From contig JAFXAD010000053.1 in assembly GCA_017522065.1 (NCBI GenBank), forward strand, positions 1-44,291: a stretch of DNA of 44,291 nucleotides, in the 5' to 3' direction. Below the pieces are notes generated by a model. That model had not been told where the DNA came from. It saw only the letters and a list, made by a program, of their open reading frames with translations, and ran no database searches. Source of the DNA: Bacteroidales bacterium (lineage in GTDB: Bacteria; Bacteroidota; Bacteroidia; Bacteroidales; P3). Of the stretch, positions 15,808 to 43,833 are shown one piece after another (the stretch's first letter is position 1; each line of letters starts with the position of its first letter). The translations under genes and the position numbers were made by a program.

Positions 15808-16926
15808 ATGGAAAACTTCATAGTATCAGCACGTAAATATCGTCCTACGACTTTCGAAAGTGTGGTCGGACAATCGCATATAACTACCACGCTGAAGAAT
15901 GCCATACGCACGGGGAAACTGGCGCAGGCTTTTCTTTTCTGTGGTCCGCGAGGTGTAGGCAAAACCACTTGTGCCCGCATTCTGGCAAAAACCATCAACT
16001 GCCAAAATCCCACTGCAGACATGGAGGCATGCAACGAGTGCGAATCATGCAAATCGTTTAACAACAACACTTCGATGAACATTTTCGAGCTCGATGCTGC
16101 ATCAAGCAATTCTGTCGACGGAATCAGGGCTTTGACCGAACAGGTAAGAATACCGCCGCAAGGCGGCAAATACAAGGTCTATATCATTGACGAGGTGCAC
16201 ATGCTGTCGACATCTGCATTCAACGCATTCCTGAAAACACTTGAGGAACCGCCGGCCTATGCGAAATTCATTCTCGCAACTACCGAAAAGCACAAAATCA
16301 TACCCACCATACTCTCACGATGCCAGATTTTTGACTTCAAACGTATTCAGACAGAAGACATTGTGCACCATTTGGAGTATGTTGCAACACAGGAAGGCGT
16401 AACTTTCGAACCCGAAGCATTACACATTATTGCCCAGAAAGCCGAAGGCGGATTGCGCGATGCTTTGTCCCTCTTCGACCAGTTGGTAAGCTTCACCCGC
16501 AGCAACCTGACCTACAAAGGATGTCTGGAAAACCTGAACATGCTCGACAGCGACTATTTCTTCCGCTTTGTCGACCTCTTCAGACAAGGCGATGTATCGT
16601 CCACACTGCTGCTGTATCAAGAGATTATCGACAAAGGTTTCGACGGGCAACATTTCATTACGGGTCTTACCGAACACCTGCGCAACCTTCTGGTCAGCAT
16701 AGATCCTGCTACCCATCGTCTGCTCGATGTAAGCGACACCTACCGCGCCAAATTCGGACAGCAGGCACACGATTGCGGTATTGCATTGCTTATGAAATAC
16801 CTTGAAATAGCATCCGACTACGAATATCGTTTTCGCGATGCCAACAACAAACGTCTTTTTGTTGAAATAGCTCTCATGAAGTTGGCGACTCTTGCAAAAA
16901 GCATGCAGCAACCGGCTGCAGGATAG
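15808..16926 (+). CDS. dnaX: DNA polymerase III subunit gamma/tau, clamp-loader core (ends at in-frame TAG)
   Basis: ATPase of the clamp loader that opens the beta sliding clamp. This 372-residue product has the full core: SARKYRPTTFESVVGQ, Walker A GPRGVGKTT (46-54), zinc module cysteines C65, C75, C78 and C81, Walker B/DEVH box IIDEVH (126-131), SRC motif (170-172), and a collar-like domain III reaching its expected end near residue 370. Bacteroidetes DnaX proteins are usually much longer, around 600 residues. Here codon 373 is TAG, and the reading frame then continues without another stop to 17538 with a tau-like C-terminal region. The protein as written would be a gamma-like minimal loader. 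Stop-codon readthrough, a nonsense mutation or a base error are all possible. Confidence 0.93.
   Translation: MENFIVSARKYRPTTFESVVGQSHITTTLKNAIRTGKLAQAFLFCGPRGVGKTTCARILAKTINCQNPTADMEACNECESCKSFNNNTSMNIFELDAASSNSVDGIRALTEQVRIPPQGGKYKVYIIDEVHMLSTSAFNAFLKTLEEPPAYAKFILATTEKHKIIPTILSRCQIFDFKRIQTEDIVHHLEYVATQEGVTFEPEALHIIAQKAEGGLRDALSLFDQLVSFTRSNLTYKGCLENLNMLDSDYFFRFVDLFRQGDVSSTLLLYQEIIDKGFDGQHFITGLTEHLRNLLVSIDPATHRLLDVSDTYRAKFGQQAHDCGIALLMKYLEIASDYEYRFRDANNKRLFVEIALMKLATLAKSMQQPAAG
16924..16926 (+). other. In-frame TAG dividing dnaX after the clamp-loader core
   Basis: The reading frame is GCA GGA TAG ATA GCA AGA. The frame upstream (15808) and downstream (to 17538) is the same, so only this codon separates the two parts. 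The whole frame has 576 codons, matching an ordinary full-length Bacteroidetes DnaX. TAG ends ruvC and the acyloxyacyl hydrolase gene in this window, so it is not generally recoded. Confidence 0.9.
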
Positions 16927-16977
16927 ATAGCAAGAACGCCACAAGCGGAACATATAACACAACCGACTCCTCCTGAT

Positions 16978-17538
16978 GTGTCCAGTAGCCACCAGACAGT
17001 GGCTGACGATAATCCTGTGCCGAAAACCGAAGACAGCATTCCCACGGAAAAGACGACCTTGCCTCCTGCGCAGCCGTCGAAAGCACATGTCGGATTGCCG
17101 ACTGCTCGTCTGACTTCCATATCAATATCCTCGCCTCATGACGTAAAGCCTGTTCTAAACACCGAGCCCGTCAAAGCTGAGCCCCTTACGCAAGAACGTC
17201 TCGAGACTTATTGGAAACAACTTCTCGAAAGTTGCAAAGGCGATGAGGAACTGTACGGACTTATCAACGACAAAGTGATTGAGCTGAAAGACGAAAACCT
17301 CTTCAATATCCAAGTGCCGAATTTGTACTACGATACACTTCTGCAACCATACCAACTGCGAATCCTCGATTTCCTGCGCAAAGCAAGTGGCGTAGAAATG
17401 CTGCAATACAGAGTGGTTGTGGCTTTTGAGAAAACCGAACGCAAGGCATACCTTCCCAGCGAGAAATTCGAGGAGATGGCCTCTCGCAACCCCTCGATGC
17501 TTTCGCTCCGAAAGCTGTTCCCGGATATTGACTTTTAA
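16978..17538 (+). CDS. DnaX (tau) C-terminal region, downstream of the in-frame TAG
   Basis: Same frame as dnaX, continuous from 16927. The first possible reinitiation codon is GTG at 16978, giving 186 residues; no ribosome-binding site is visible. Residues 1-60 form a Pro/Ser/Thr-rich linker, followed by a folded region (RLETYWKQLLESCKGDEELY, then VPNLYYDTLLQPYQLRILDF and ending SLRKLFPDIDF) like the C-terminal domain of Bacteroidetes DnaX, which would contact the polymerase or helicase in tau. There is no decay: no further stops or frame breaks. It is therefore either translated by readthrough as part of tau, made separately, or very recently cut off. Confidence 0.7.
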   Translation: MSSSHQTVADDNPVPKTEDSIPTEKTTLPPAQPSKAHVGLPTARLTSISISSPHDVKPVLNTEPVKAEPLTQERLETYWKQLLESCKGDEELYGLINDKVIELKDENLFNIQVPNLYYDTLLQPYQLRILDFLRKASGVEMLQYRVVVAFEKTERKAYLPSEKFEEMASRNPSMLSLRKLFPDIDF

Positions 17539-17608
17539 TCGATAAACAAGTGCAACAATAATATTACAAAACAAACGTTTTCATTAAACAAGCCGACTAA
17601 AGGAAGTC

Positions 17609-17709
17609 GAGAGATTTTTGAAAAATATTGAGCGGAGCGACCGAACCAAGCGAGCGGGGTGATGAAAGGTTTTCAAAACGATTTTTGAAAGATTTTGAGC
17701 GGAGCGACC
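17609..17709. repeat. GAGCGGAGCGACC interspersed repeat (two units)
   Basis: Two units of GATTTTTGAAA(A/G)AT-TTTGAGCGGAGCGACC. The second (17675-17709) matches the copy at 44189-44225 over 35 bp. This and 17539-17608 make up the 218-bp gap between the dnaX tail and the antiporter gene; nothing else was seen in it. Confidence 0.8.
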
Positions 17710-17756
17710 AAACCATTGTGAGAAAACGGCCTAATTGAATTGAACTTTTAATACAG

Positions 17757-19868: not shown

Positions 19869-23236
<3,368 letters not shown>

Positions 23237-37767: not shown

Positions 37768-40700
37768 ATGAAAAGGACTTTTCTGTTATTTATTGCCATT
37801 GCAACCGTCGTGGTTGCAGCTGCTCAGAACGATACATTCAAATGGAATTCGGTCGACAGCTTGATTATGAAACAGTATTATTCGCAGGCTTACGAGCAGG
37901 CCGATTCCAATTTCAACAAAGCTATTGCCGACAACGACTCTCGGCAAATCCTCGTTTCGGCACTCTATCTCGCACAGATTGGCGCCGAATTTAAGGAAGA
38001 CAATAATGATTCGTCGCTGGCCAGATATAAGAATATCATGCCCCGACTAAATAATGTCGACCAATCCGTTTGCCGTATAATGCTCGCCGACTTTTATGCC
38101 CAAAACCGTTGGAATCGGAACAGCGAGTCGGACGAAAAAGATCTCGACTACAAACTTTGGTCGTTCAATCGCCTACGAGATACGGTGACTTCGCTGTTGT
38201 ACGAGGCCTTGCGCGATGAAAAAACGCTCCAACAGACAGCCTCCGGATCTTTGGGCAAACTTGTATCTGTCAGAGAAGGAACCGATGGCGACCTGACGCC
38301 AACCCTCTACGACATGCTGGTACGAAAAGCCTTGGATATCCTCTCTCTGATGGACTATCCACGGCTTATGCCTGGCGATATCGGCAATGCTGAACTGCTC
38401 TTTGCCGAAAGCGAACGCTTCATAGAAGTCCCCATCGAATGTTCTGACCCATCAAGAAACATGGCTCGTTTTGCTTTGAAAGCATTGCAGAATCTTGAAC
38501 GTTTCCATCTCAGCCGCGGCGAAAGCGAAGGTTTAATGATTGAGTTGTATGATATGCGTTCTAAAAATATTGCTTCATTAGTGAATATCCCGGATGAGCA
38601 GATGATGGATTTCCAGCTTGAACAGCTGCCTCGGGTCATTGCGCACTACCGCCAAAAGCCTGATAGCCACATAACTCTGCTCTACCATTCGCTTGCAACT
38701 ATACTCTGCAGTCGTGAACGCTATGTTGAAGCAATGACGGCCATCGACACTGCGTTGGCCCTTTACCCCGACAGCCCCGGCGGCGTCAGCTGCCACAACC
38801 TGCGCTGCCGCATAAAGAAAAAGAATATCTTGCTGGATTTGGACCGGATCGGCGTCTCTTCGCAGTCGCAGCTGGCCGTGGTTCACTCGACCAATGTCGA
38901 ACATCTGTATTTCCGAGTAATCAAGTATGTTGACTGTTATGACAGGTACGGAGATAAGGAAGTGCGCGCCAAACTGCTGCATCAGAAGGTGCTGGAGCAG
39001 TGGGACCAGCCTGTCGCGCTGCGTGGTGACTACAAGCAGCAGGAATCGTACTCCGTTGTTCCACCACTGCCGCAGGGCGACTACCTGCTGCTTGTTTCGG
39101 ACGTGCCGGGTTTCGACACCAGTGGCATCGCAACACTGCACTTCAAGGTCGAGGACATCGTGTTTGTTGCCGATCGTAACTACGGCGCAATCCAGCGCGG
39201 TTTCGTCATCGAGCGCGCCACGGGACGCCCTGTCGCCAACCTCAGCGTGACGCTGAAGGGCCGCAGGGACTACAACAGCGCATTGCTCACATTGGCCACA
39301 ACAAGCACCGACAAGGATGGATACTATGATTTCTCGCCTTACGTCAAGGCCGACTGGAAGTCGATGCGGAGGATGGAGGACACGCGCGTTTTCGCGACAT
39401 ACAACGGCTACGAGATTAGCAGCGTATATGGTGGGCTGGACAGGGATTCGCTTGCACCTTCGCCGATGGCGCAGAGTGCGCATTTCTTTTTCGACAGGCC
39501 TGTCTATAAGCCCGGCGACACCGTGTCGTTTGCGTACCTGACCTATCGCGACAACCGCACGTCCGGGTTCACAGTCCCCGACCGCGACTTGGAGTTCATT
39601 CTCAAGGATATAAACAGCAAGTCCATCGACACCCTGACGCTCGTTTCGGACGAATACGGACTGTGCGAGGGACGCTTCGTCCTGCCTGCCGACGCCACTC
39701 CGGGCCAGTGGTCGATACGGACTGGCCAATATGGTGGCGAATCGAAATATTTCATCGTCGAAGCATACAAGCAGCCCAAGTTCACCGTCACCCTTTCGGC
39801 TCCAGCCAAGGCTAACGCTTTTGGACAGACAGCTCGTTTCGAGGGTGTTGCCGCCTCCTACAGCGCTGTGCCCATAAGTGGCGCCAAGGTGAGCTACACC
39901 GTTGACCGCAACGAGATGCACCCCTGGTGGCGGCGTGGATGGGACCGCTGGTGGCATCCCGCTGAAACAAAAACGGTGGCCAGCGGCGAGGTGGTTACGG
40001 CCGACGACGGCACCTTCAATATCGACTTCGTCCCGATGCCCGACTCGAATGCCGACTTTGGCCGCAAACCCTGCTTCACATATACCGTCAAAGTCGATGT
40101 GACCGACATCAACGGCGAGACGCACAGCGCGCAGGCCTCGATAAATGTCGGCTTTGTCAACAGCTTTGCCTATATCGACGAGGATGACGAAAACCGCGAC
40201 GATGTGTCGCTCGCCCTTGTCTGCCGCAACCTTGACGGGCAAGCTCTCGACGGCACTGCCAGCATCGAGGTGGTGCGACTGGCGAAGCCCAGCAAGCCAC
40301 GGATGCGCTACGATATGATGGACTATGACGACAGTACAATCGCTATGCCTTTGGACCGTAGCGAGTTCGAACGGCTGTTTCCGTATTATGACTATGACGG
40401 CTCGGCATCCGACATCGAGCGGTGGCCTGCCGAGAAATCTGTCTTTTCGACCCAGGTGCGCTTTTCTGCCGACAGTCCTTATCGCTACAGCCTCAAGGGT
40501 TTGGCTGCTGGAGCCTATCGTCTGCGTGCCACGGTGCGCACCGCGAGTGGCGACACGATGACGACGACGAAGGATATCGTCTACGAGCCGTCGGGTGCCC
40601 GTCGCCCTGTCGGTTCCGCACTGCTGTCGGCATCGGTCGACAAAGCGGAGTGCGAGGTGGGCGACAGCCTGACCCTGCGCCTCGGAAGCCGATACGACGA

Positions 40701-43700
40701 CGTTACTTTCTATGTCCTTATACATAAACACAATGTCTGCTACCGCCACCTGCTGCGCACCGTCAGCAATGGCTTTGTAGAAGTCGCGGTTCCCGTCGGC
40801 GAGGAGATGCTCGGCGGATTCAAAATAGAAGTCGCTGCCGTTAAAGCCAACATTATGGAACGCAGCAGTTTCGATATCGGGGTACCATACTCTGACAAGC
40901 GGCTTGACGTCAGCTTTGAGACTTTCCGCGACAAGCTCGAACCCGGCAGCAACGAACGCTGGACGCTGCGCATCAAAGACCGCAAAAGCGGCAAGCCGAT
41001 AGCTGCCAATCTGCTGATGACGATGTACGACCACGCCTTGGACACTTACGGCAGCCTGAACTGGCATCTCAGACCTTGGAGCCAGAGCTCATATTCCACT
41101 ATTTTTGGCAGTATAAACTATAAGACATCAGGGAGTTATGGATTTACTCCAAACTTGCCATTCCGAACCAATGCCTACTATCGCTATCGCATCACAACGT
41201 TGAAGGAGGGCTTTTTCGAGCGGCAATATGCTTCAAACCGTATGTACAAGACGGCAACGGCCCGTGGCGAAAGTGGCTTTGTGGTTATGGCCGAAAAAGT
41301 GCCGGTTATCGAAATCGGCGCTCCAGAGTCTGGTGCTCGTCTCTCGTCTGAGGATATCGGACGTATGCCGTCCAACTCTGTCGACGGAATCGTCGCTGCC
41401 GTTGCCGGTGTGGGATACGAAGCTGCCGACGAAGCCGCTGTGACGGAAGAAGAGATTTTGACTACCGCCGAAGACGGTGGCAGCGATGATGTCCAGATAC
41501 GCCAGAACCTCAACACGCTGGCCTTCTTCCGTCCGACGCTGCGCAGTGGCGACGACGGACTTGTCGAGCTTTCGTTCACGGCTCCTGAACTGCTCACCGA
41601 ATGGAGCATCAGCGGCTTGGCGTGGACCAAAGACCTCAAGGTGGGCAGCGTCAGCGCAAAAGCTATCACTCAGAAGCGCCTGATGGTGGTGCCCAACGTG
41701 CCGCGCTTCCTCCGCCACGGCGACACCTGCCTTTTCTCGGTCAAGGTCAGCAACCTCAGTGGCAAAGACCAGACAGTCGACGTCTCGTTCGAAATGTTCG
41801 ACGCCGTCAGCAACGAGCCGCTACCGATGATCGTGGGTGGCGACACGCGTCAGATTGCCATAAAGGACGGCGCCAGTGGTGAGGTAAGCTTCCTCCTCGC
41901 AGCTCCAAGAGCTCCCGTATTTATGGCCAACTACAGGGTCATTGCCCGCGGCGACGGCGTCAGCGATGGCGAGCAGGCAGCCATACCGCTGTTGCCCAGT
42001 CGACAGCTCGTCACCGAATCCATGGCATTCTACATCAATGGGGCAGGGGAGAAGCACTACGAAATGAAACACCTTGTCGAAAACGGCAACAAAACCTCTG
42101 ACTCTCAAAATTTCACACTCTCCAACCATAGCCTCACTGTCGACCTCACGCCAAATCCTCTCTGGCTGGCCATCCAGTCGCTCCCATACGTGGCTCGGCA
42201 GGATAACCCTTCCAACATCTTCCTTGTCAATTCTATCTATGCTAATAGTCTATCTTTTAGTATTGTAAATAATAATCCTGATATAGAAAAACTTTTCCGC
42301 CTCTGGGAGAAAGAAAAACAAGACGTTTTCCAGTCTGAGCTGGACCGCAATACCGACCTCAAGCAGACTGTTATGGAAGAGACTCCTTGGCTGCAGGAGG
42401 CCATCAGCGAAGAACAGCGTCACCGCGATGTGGCACGCTTCTTTAACCGTACAACACTGAGCCGGCAGCTGCAGAAAGACCTCGACCGGCTCCTCGATGC
42501 CCAACGCGCCGATGGCGGATGGAGCTGGATAGACGGCGGACGCTACTCGAGCCTCTATACCACACAATACATTCTGAAAACTCTTGGACTGCTCCAGCAG
42601 CAAGGTGTCGAACTCGACAACCGCACTCGCCGTGCTCTCGACAAAGCCCTCGACTATGTCGATCAGGAAACATATACTTATTATAAGAAATATGTTAAAG
42701 GCACCAACTTCGAACCGGTCAACCTCGACTATCTCTACGTTCGCAGCTACTACCCGGACAACAAAATGACAAAGCAACAAAAAGAGGCCTACGACTTCTT
42801 CTACAGCAACGCCAAGAAGTACAACAAATCCTATCGCTCTCTCTATTCGCAGGCCGTGCTTGCAATGGTGTTCAACCGCGGTGGCGACAAGTCGCTGGCT
42901 CGCGAAATGACTGTACGTATCCGCGAGAAGGCTCTCCGCAGCGACGAGATGGGCATGTACTGGCGCGACAACACCAGCGGATGGAGCTGGAGCGAACGTC
43001 CCATCGAAACCCAAGCTATGCTGATTCGCACTTTCGCCGAAGTGCTCGCCGACAAAGAAAGTACAGCCCTCATGCAACAATGGCTGCTCAAGCAGAAGCA
43101 GACAACCAACTGGAGCACTGATGTGGCAACAGTCAATGCCATACAGGCCCTCATGCTCAATTTGCCAACCGACTCCAAAAAGCAAAACAGCTCCCACCAA
43201 TCCATCCTGACTCCATCGTCCATAAGCCTCTCTTTCGGCAACCACAATTTGACGTCCGACTCGACAAAACATCCTATTCACGTCAGCCAACGTCTCAAAG
43301 GCAGCGAGATAACACCCTCCGACGGAAAACTCACAATCCGCAAAAACGACGACGGCATAGCCTGGGGTGCCATGTATTGGCAATATTTCGAAAACGTCGA
43401 AAAGATTCCTGCCAGCTCCATGGGCGTGTCCGTCAATCGGACATTCTATAAAATTGAGGGCGACAAACTCTCGAGACTCGACTCCGCCACCTCCATCCGC
43501 GTTGGCGACAAGATCCGCGTACGCATCGAAATAACCACCGACCGCAATCTCGAATACCTCGAGCTCAAAGACCCACGTTGCGCAGCCCTCGAACCTGTCA
43601 GCACACGGAGCGGATGGCACTGGAACGGTGGACTTTCATACTACTGCGCTGTAACCAATGCCGCACAGACACTTTACATCGACCGGCTCAACAAGGGTTC

Positions 43701-43833
43701 CTACCTCGTCGAATACGACCTCTACGTCAACAACGCAGGAACCTTCGTCACTGCTCCCGCCACAATCCAAAGCCTCTACGCACCAGAGTTCCGCGCCCTC
43801 TCGCCTGCAAAAACAATTAAAATCACCAAATAA
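37768..43833 (+). CDS. Large alpha-2-macroglobulin family protein (no thioester)
   Basis: 2021 residues with signal peptide (MKRTFLLFIAIATVVVAAAQ). The first ~450 residues are a helical, repeat-like region. From residue about 460 the macroglobulin domains begin (VADRNYGAIQRGFVIERATG; FFFDRPVYKPGDTVSFAYLT near 575). The A2M core (FFRPTLRSGDDGLVELSFTAPELLTEW) is at about 1250, and an alpha/alpha toroid (ADGGWSWIDGGRYSSLYTTQY) near 1580. Where thioester members have CGEQ or CAEQ, this one reads RQDNPSNIFLVNSIYANSL (about 1475-1493) with no Cys or Gln pair, so it cannot bind targets covalently. Bacterial A2Ms are thought to trap attacking proteases in the envelope. The usual partner pbpC is not adjacent; the gene stands alone behind a tRNA. 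Confidence 0.93.
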   Translation: MKRTFLLFIAIATVVVAAAQNDTFKWNSVDSLIMKQYYSQAYEQADSNFNKAIADNDSRQILVSALYLAQIGAEFKEDNNDSSLARYKNIMPRLNNVDQSVCRIMLADFYAQNRWNRNSESDEKDLDYKLWSFNRLRDTVTSLLYEALRDEKTLQQTASGSLGKLVSVREGTDGDLTPTLYDMLVRKALDILSLMDYPRLMPGDIGNAELLFAESERFIEVPIECSDPSRNMARFALKALQNLERFHLSRGESEGLMIELYDMRSKNIASLVNIPDEQMMDFQLEQLPRVIAHYRQKPDSHITLLYHSLATILCSRERYVEAMTAIDTALALYPDSPGGVSCHNLRCRIKKKNILLDLDRIGVSSQSQLAVVHSTNVEHLYFRVIKYVDCYDRYGDKEVRAKLLHQKVLEQWDQPVALRGDYKQQESYSVVPPLPQGDYLLLVSDVPGFDTSGIATLHFKVEDIVFVADRNYGAIQRGFVIERATGRPVANLSVTLKGRRDYNSALLTLATTSTDKDGYYDFSPYVKADWKSMRRMEDTRVFATYNGYEISSVYGGLDRDSLAPSPMAQSAHFFFDRPVYKPGDTVSFAYLTYRDNRTSGFTVPDRDLEFILKDINSKSIDTLTLVSDEYGLCEGRFVLPADATPGQWSIRTGQYGGESKYFIVEAYKQPKFTVTLSAPAKANAFGQTARFEGVAASYSAVPISGAKVSYTVDRNEMHPWWRRGWDRWWHPAETKTVASGEVVTADDGTFNIDFVPMPDSNADFGRKPCFTYTVKVDVTDINGETHSAQASINVGFVNSFAYIDEDDENRDDVSLALVCRNLDGQALDGTASIEVVRLAKPSKPRMRYDMMDYDDSTIAMPLDRSEFERLFPYYDYDGSASDIERWPAEKSVFSTQVRFSADSPYRYSLKGLAAGAYRLRATVRTASGDTMTTTKDIVYEPSGARRPVGSALLSASVDKAECEVGDSLTLRLGSRYDDVTFYVLIHKHNVCYRHLLRTVSNGFVEVAVPVGEEMLGGFKIEVAAVKANIMERSSFDIGVPYSDKRLDVSFETFRDKLEPGSNERWTLRIKDRKSGKPIAANLLMTMYDHALDTYGSLNWHLRPWSQSSYSTIFGSINYKTSGSYGFTPNLPFRTNAYYRYRITTLKEGFFERQYASNRMYKTATARGESGFVVMAEKVPVIEIGAPESGARLSSEDIGRMPSNSVDGIVAAVAGVGYEAADEAAVTEEEILTTAEDGGSDDVQIRQNLNTLAFFRPTLRSGDDGLVELSFTAPELLTEWSISGLAWTKDLKVGSVSAKAITQKRLMVVPNVPRFLRHGDTCLFSVKVSNLSGKDQTVDVSFEMFDAVSNEPLPMIVGGDTRQIAIKDGASGEVSFLLAAPRAPVFMANYRVIARGDGVSDGEQAAIPLLPSRQLVTESMAFYINGAGEKHYEMKHLVENGNKTSDSQNFTLSNHSLTVDLTPNPLWLAIQSLPYVARQDNPSNIFLVNSIYANSLSFSIVNNNPDIEKLFRLWEKEKQDVFQSELDRNTDLKQTVMEETPWLQEAISEEQRHRDVARFFNRTTLSRQLQKDLDRLLDAQRADGGWSWIDGGRYSSLYTTQYILKTLGLLQQQGVELDNRTRRALDKALDYVDQETYTYYKKYVKGTNFEPVNLDYLYVRSYYPDNKMTKQQKEAYDFFYSNAKKYNKSYRSLYSQAVLAMVFNRGGDKSLAREMTVRIREKALRSDEMGMYWRDNTSGWSWSERPIETQAMLIRTFAEVLADKESTALMQQWLLKQKQTTNWSTDVATVNAIQALMLNLPTDSKKQNSSHQSILTPSSISLSFGNHNLTSDSTKHPIHVSQRLKGSEITPSDGKLTIRKNDDGIAWGAMYWQYFENVEKIPASSMGVSVNRTFYKIEGDKLSRLDSATSIRVGDKIRVRIEITTDRNLEYLELKDPRCAALEPVSTRSGWHWNGGLSYYCAVTNAAQTLYIDRLNKGSYLVEYDLYVNNAGTFVTAPATIQSLYAPEFRALSPAKTIKITK

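Follow-up and report, generated by a model that had tools for sequence, protein, structure and literature searches.

The window, meaning the whole stretch of 44,291 nucleotides analysed here, stems from an assembly of 2.62 Mb in 62 contigs rated 90.8% complete (G000), and carries on its forward strand a dnaX gene consisting of two parts in one reading frame. The first part (15808–16926) comprises 372 codons and a TAG stop and codes for the AAA+ clamp-loader domains of gamma, as judged from matches to the Pfam families DNA_pol3_delta2, DNAX_ATPase_lid, and DNA_pol3_gamma3, to the gamma/tau model NF011531 (positions 1–366 of 614, E 6.2e-206), and to TIGR02397. The original prediction had recognized codon 373, which lies at the gamma/tau boundary, as TAG and had noted that its frame stays open for 203 more codons. 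Both statements hold: the TAG at 16924–16926 ends the frame starting at 15808, and no further stop is encountered until the TAA at 17536–17538. The extension (16927–17538) consists of a linker and the tau C-terminal region, including a C-terminal domain with a predicted alpha/beta fold (17191–17535). Directly 3' of the TAG lie the codons ATA GCA AGA (16927–16935), followed by a small hairpin, CGC(CACAA)GCG (16937–16947), whose first stem base is nucleotide 11 past the stop, and by a tail, GAACATATAA (16948–16957), which mostly reads RRCAYR in an alignment of 102 distinct elements from the genus. The hairpin of the window's own genome is weak, with 3 bp and −2.7 kcal/mol as calculated by RNAfold. 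Three other observations on the window may be recorded: the gap 3' of dnaX (17600–17730) contains, as seen by eye, short repeats with GAGCGGAGCGACC; a TAG-terminated gene for a protein of 403 amino acids with a PagL (lipid A 3-O-deacylase) domain is located at 22025–23236 and is perhaps the one initially described as an acyloxyacyl hydrolase gene; and a frame of 2021 codons is open at 37768–43833.

The tau-like nature assigned to the downstream part is borne out by a match to NF011531 at positions 421–609 of 614 (E 1.5e-10); no Pfam family matched this part. An AlphaFold2 model over 17086–17535 (150 residues), calculated from an input alignment of 32 sequences, reached a mean pLDDT of 88 and a pTM of 0.63. 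For the C-terminal domain, Foldseek returned just one match with E < 0.001 (9.3e-4), to a chain of the SirA–DnaA domain I structure 4tps; going by its length, this chain is presumably the DnaA part. The match to 5fku_E, from the E. coli Pol III complex, was weaker (E 0.027) and stood amid unrelated hits of similar strength, and a sequence search of the PDB with the tau C-terminal domain gave nothing significant. The dN/dS analysis proposed at the outset for the region past the TAG yielded values of 0.26, 0.25, 0.09, and 0.26 for the four closest pairs of sequences, which indicates that the extension is under purifying selection. Among the 76 pairs with dS < 1, the tau part showed a median of 0.52 and a maximum of 1.34; the values of distant pairs are higher and noisy, the linker evolves fast, and such pairs align badly.

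A view on the genus of the window shows how widely this arrangement is distributed. When 120 genomes, one per species, were searched with the read-through protein and the respective loci were fetched, the gamma/tau boundary was present in 113 of them, with a TAG followed by tau in the same frame in 107 cases and a TAG with tau in the +1 frame in six. The TAG is the first stop in all 107 same-frame genes, and the second frame extends over 166–259 codons in the 105 of them that are closed (two others run off the fetched stretch). Conservation across species thus covers both the in-frame stop and the long open frame behind it, and such recurrence excludes chance. The second frame of the closed genes ends with TGA in 60, TAA in 23, and TAG in 22 cases. 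The comparison of related genomes, which had been named beforehand as a refuting test, revealed no sense codon in place of the stop, and thus no open frame at the boundary, in any of the 113 genes retained. Not counted were L060, L118 (an N-terminal fragment of G103), and a second N-terminal fragment in G018. L060, an open dnaX without TAG, occurs in G004 next to a TAG-type copy and is 67% identical; since the tree places it outside the genus, it was treated as contamination. Seven genomes (G013, G035, G043, G045, G055, G062, and G093) gave no dnaX match across the boundary; among these, G035 is rated 97% complete, and the missing match is perhaps due to an assembly gap.

The nucleotides following the stop show constraint. 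The base right after the UAG is A in 107 of 107 genes, and +4U has been reported to reduce read-through (PMC5289835). Counted from this A onward, the bases AT.GC.AG are invariant in the 107 genes, corresponding to a consensus of ATW GCA AGR in the genus. The codons 5' of the TAG are variable, the one directly preceding it being GGA in 38, GGT and CCA in 14 each, ACA in 13, and AGT in nine of the 107 genes, with A or T as last base in 104. If codon usage in the gamma parts of the same genes is taken as background, the choice of codons after the stop is unusual: the first (Ile) is ATT in 62 and ATA in 45 genes and never ATC, which accounts for 59% of Ile codons in the gamma parts; the second (Ala) is GCA in 100 of 107, compared to 15% of Ala codons in the background; and at the third (Arg), AGA and AGG together make up 106 of 107 cases, compared to 6.6% of Arg codons. 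Note that the codon entropies of the Ile column (0.98) and the Arg column (0.89) are within the ranges of eight conserved Ile columns (0.42–1.48) and ten conserved Arg columns (0.72–2.03), respectively, and that the Ala column (0.45) lies below all 15 conserved Ala columns (0.80–1.95). The oddity of the codons past the stop is therefore the retention of rare codons rather than low entropy as such, since the conserved low-entropy Ile and Arg columns listed elsewhere in the genes keep the common codon.

The second conserved feature is the hairpin, which is short throughout the genus (3–5 bp). A stem of at least 3 bp can be formed in 76 of 77 distinct elements, the exception being that of gene L059, compared to a mean of 41 and a maximum of 54 in shuffled sequences; with a stricter score, 73 of 77 form strong hairpins, shuffled sequences reaching 26 on average and 35 at most. 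At the lax cut-off, ten windows taken elsewhere in the genes gave between 39 and 61 of 77. The stem starts at nucleotide 10 or 11 past the stop in 72 of the 77 elements. Its recurring forms are CGCC and GGCG around a loop of 3 nt, GCC and GGC around a loop of 4 nt (GNRA in several cases), and GTCCC-GAAA-GGGC; as these set the stem in different codon registers, the encoded peptide changes and the RNA shape stays. Covariation in the stem is modest, most pairs being invariant and C-G being replaced by U-A in two and by U-G in nine cells at two inner pair positions. Conservation of the stop context and of a 3' RNA structure is thus apparent from the frozen codons and the nearly constant presence of a hairpin, with little contribution from covariation. 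When 25 genus genomes were searched with a profile of the element, 23 gave a single match each in dnaX (of the other two, one lacks a dnaX match and one is of the +1 type). There were two weak extra matches (E 0.04 and 0.08), and 16 genomes of other families gave none; at most 150 candidates were scored per genome in this search, and further copies may be missed. No Rfam family matched at E up to 1 within 16600–17300, and a scan of viral contigs for one type of the element found nothing.

With respect to decoding, RF1 is encoded, and the suppressor tRNA with a CUA anticodon whose presence was to be checked is found neither among the 43 tRNAs of G000, a set from which tRNAs for Phe and Trp, among others, are missing, nor among the 45 tRNAs of the relative G095, whose assembly is rated 100% complete. 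A pattern scan for CUA tRNAs in 119 genus genomes showed no excess over the reversed control among the matches listed, and the tRNA-like matches recurring among these, which come from about 23 of the genomes, were, as judged by eye, portions of the tRNAs for Glu, Arg(TCT), and Tyr. TAG serves as ordinary terminal stop in 22 of 105 genus dnaX genes and in three of 28 selected long open reading frames of the window. A genome-wide reassignment of TAG (as in code 15), already considered unlikely in the original prediction, is rejected on these grounds. The combination of a stop-reading tRNA with a known RNA element, as expected for selenocysteine or pyrrolysine insertion, was not observed either, given the lack of a CUA tRNA in the sets examined and of an Rfam match in the region.

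The boundary looks different outside the genus. Of 77 named loci from other Bacteroidota among the matches listed, 64 show a run of at least eight A there, and this pattern has been tied to slippage (PMC3711429). Inside the genus, 112 of 113 genes are devoid of A or T runs of at least eight between −60 and +300 of the stop, the sole exception being an A8 at +31 in L013; a slippery-run mechanism was therefore rejected for the window and for these 112 genes. Other genera of the family differ as well, as judged from the loci fetched: several have an A-run and one has a T-run. Among 393 genomes surveyed at the order level, at least two TAG-bearing dnaX genes outside the genus were recorded among the matches listed (G426 and G331), both with the TAG located 1–4 codons past an A-run. 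The six relatives of the +1 type within the genus (L074–L079) contain the sequence NNY AGG C, a TAG two codons on, and then the hairpin; the codon before AGG is GTT in three, CAT in two, and GTC in one, and +1 reading from GGC leads to an intact tau end. On the tree, which was calculated with FastTree only (151 rows) and shows two of the six +1 rows as long branches, these members are likely to be nested inside the TAG group, with the number of origins being unsure. From this nesting, +1 frameshifting in the genus has probably been derived from readthrough. Further boundary arrangements were noted in other genera. A T-run, possibly a slippage site, directly follows the clamp-loader domains in four of four fetched genes of genus g12 (L128–L130 and L147). 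In seven of ten fetched genes of genus g10 of the same family (L131, L134, and L141–L145), the conserved sequence CCC AGG CAA AGC (T/A)TA GA lies in an open tau frame with a TAG in the +1 frame, a reverse layout which could possibly represent a +1 frameshift producing gamma. Finally, an inverted repeat GTTGTCTCC...GGAGACAAC is seen by eye at the dnaX boundary of genus g3 (L138 and L151–L153).

The idea put forward initially, namely that stop-codon readthrough yields gamma and tau from one gene, is supported by these comparative data, and it is very probable that dnaX of the window's genus employs programmed UAG readthrough to make tau and termination to make gamma. According to this proposal, a part of the ribosomes would stop at the UAG and release gamma via RF1 as the default product, and in others an ordinary near-cognate aminoacyl-tRNA would be accepted at the UAG, so that translation continues in frame to produce tau. 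The signal would be composed of the UAG, the fixed 3' context AUW-GCA-AGR, and the short hairpin with its stem starting at nucleotide 10–11. Termination would be inefficient at a UAG with A and this context on its 3' side, and once a ribosome has paused with the UAG in its A site, the hairpin would come to lie close to where the mRNA enters. What the computation shows is the conservation of the stop and of the tau frame, the constraint at the nucleotide level, the recurring hairpin, and that no CUA tRNA turned up in two genomes; readthrough itself, any level of it, any residue it would insert, and the action of the hairpin are inferred.

The strongest rival is termination followed by reinitiation, or internal initiation, in which ribosomes would terminate at the UAG and begin anew at the AUU/AUA codon or a nearby start, making the tau C-terminus a separate protein. 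AUU is indeed a rare bacterial start codon, and the codon past the UAG is only AUU or AUA and never AUC; moreover, an in-frame start codon is found within 30 nt on either side of the TAG in 76 of 107 genes, and some ATG, GTG, or TTG precedes the C-terminal domain in 104 of 105 linkers. However, ATG is lacking altogether between the TAG and the C-terminal domain in 49 of 105 genes, and 71 of 105 have no ATG, GTG, or TTG within the first 20 codons past the TAG. The six +1 relatives also argue against this explanation, as their C-terminal frame reads GGC NTA GCT AGN by the stop, without a usual start codon, and still the hairpin is kept. Reinitiation would furthermore leave the frozen GCA-AGR and the hairpin unexplained, and a separate C-terminus would be without the N-terminal AAA+ part through which tau joins the clamp loader. 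It is therefore regarded as improbable.

A hidden decoding factor guided by the element, be it an unrecognized UAG-reading tRNA, an insertion system like those for pyrrolysine or selenocysteine, or editing of the UAG in the RNA, seems quite improbable. A stop with a downstream hairpin resembles the layout of bacterial SECIS elements, and the assemblies that supplied the tRNA sets are rated 90.8% and 100% complete, the set of G000 being visibly incomplete. Yet neither set contains a CUA anticodon, the region from 16600 to 17300 has no Rfam match at E up to 1, and the element is found once per genome, in dnaX. A GGA-to-GGA bypass as in T4 gene 60, prompted by the sequence GGA-TAG, was also considered and dropped, as the next GGA is not in frame and the codon preceding the stop is variable. 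In-frame stop hopping, in which the peptidyl-tRNA would skip the UAG and re-pair downstream, is mentioned in the review PMC5009743 as something that might mimic readthrough, although no case of it is known. This would require a matching landing codon; since the codon preceding the stop varies and the next one is fixed as ATW, hopping was rejected and appears extremely doubtful. A pseudogene, a recent nonsense mutation, or an assembly error, the latter two of which the original prediction had left possible and any of which may occur in a single genome or an assembly of 62 contigs, has a virtually negligible probability and is refuted by the recurrence of TAG and 3' context in 107 species, with an intact downstream frame and a hairpin in 76 of 77 distinct elements.

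Programmed readthrough being preferred over these alternatives, a broader evolutionary reading is somewhat favored: the poly-A slippage common in dnaX of the phylum may have been replaced by a dedicated UAG readthrough signal, which has been kept across a genus of more than 100 species, and derived members may reuse the same hairpin for +1 frameshifting at AGG C. If this replacement is true, the hairpin would be a general recoding stimulator, allowing ordinary tRNAs to compete with RF1 at a fixed ratio.

The dnaX gene is a textbook case of one gene coding for two proteins through recoding, and the routes reported for its two products are frameshifting, slippage, and, in Caulobacter, proteolysis (PMC5009743). 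A dnaX gene using readthrough was not found in the open-licence papers searched; readthrough itself is known, and its use in dnaX and the present element are new as far as these papers show. The regulatory frameshifting of RF2 and antizyme has not been found to be replaced by readthrough (PMC5009743). If true, readthrough would be one more way, independent of the others, of obtaining both products, and would lend weight to the idea that gamma is important; a cellular bacterial gene would, in addition, carry a readthrough signal that is both compact and highly conserved.

In E. coli, gamma is made by a −1 shift at A_AAA_AAG (PMC3711429, PMC5009743). This system resembles the proposed one in deriving gamma and tau from one gene, with a recoding site at about the same boundary and a 3' hairpin. 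It differs in that the window has no slippery run and would make gamma as the default product without a frame change: A_AAA_AAG is absent from the boundary in the window, and the frame is the same before and after the TAG. Slippage of the Thermus type and the two-ORF dnaX genes with poly-A runs detected by GeneTack affect the same boundary and yield the same two products (PMC3711429), whereas an A or T run of about nine is not present at the boundary in the window. A parallel may be drawn to gag-pol readthrough of retroviruses such as MuLV, where a UAG is likewise read through without a change of frame and is stimulated by an RNA structure on its 3' side (PMC5009743); in contrast, the present case concerns a housekeeping gene on a bacterial chromosome, with a tiny hairpin instead of a pseudoknot and an unrelated sequence. 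The yeast element Ty1, in turn, undergoes +1 frameshifting at CUU AGG C (PMC5009743), which is mirrored by the NNY AGG C and the +1 codon GGC of the six +1 relatives, though not by the window; the window's own genome contains one gene for tRNA-Arg(CCT) and two for tRNA-Gly(GCC). Unlike in Ty1, the codon before AGG is never CTT in these six relatives and a 3' hairpin is present. The +1 relatives may offer a view on how one mode of recoding turns into another.
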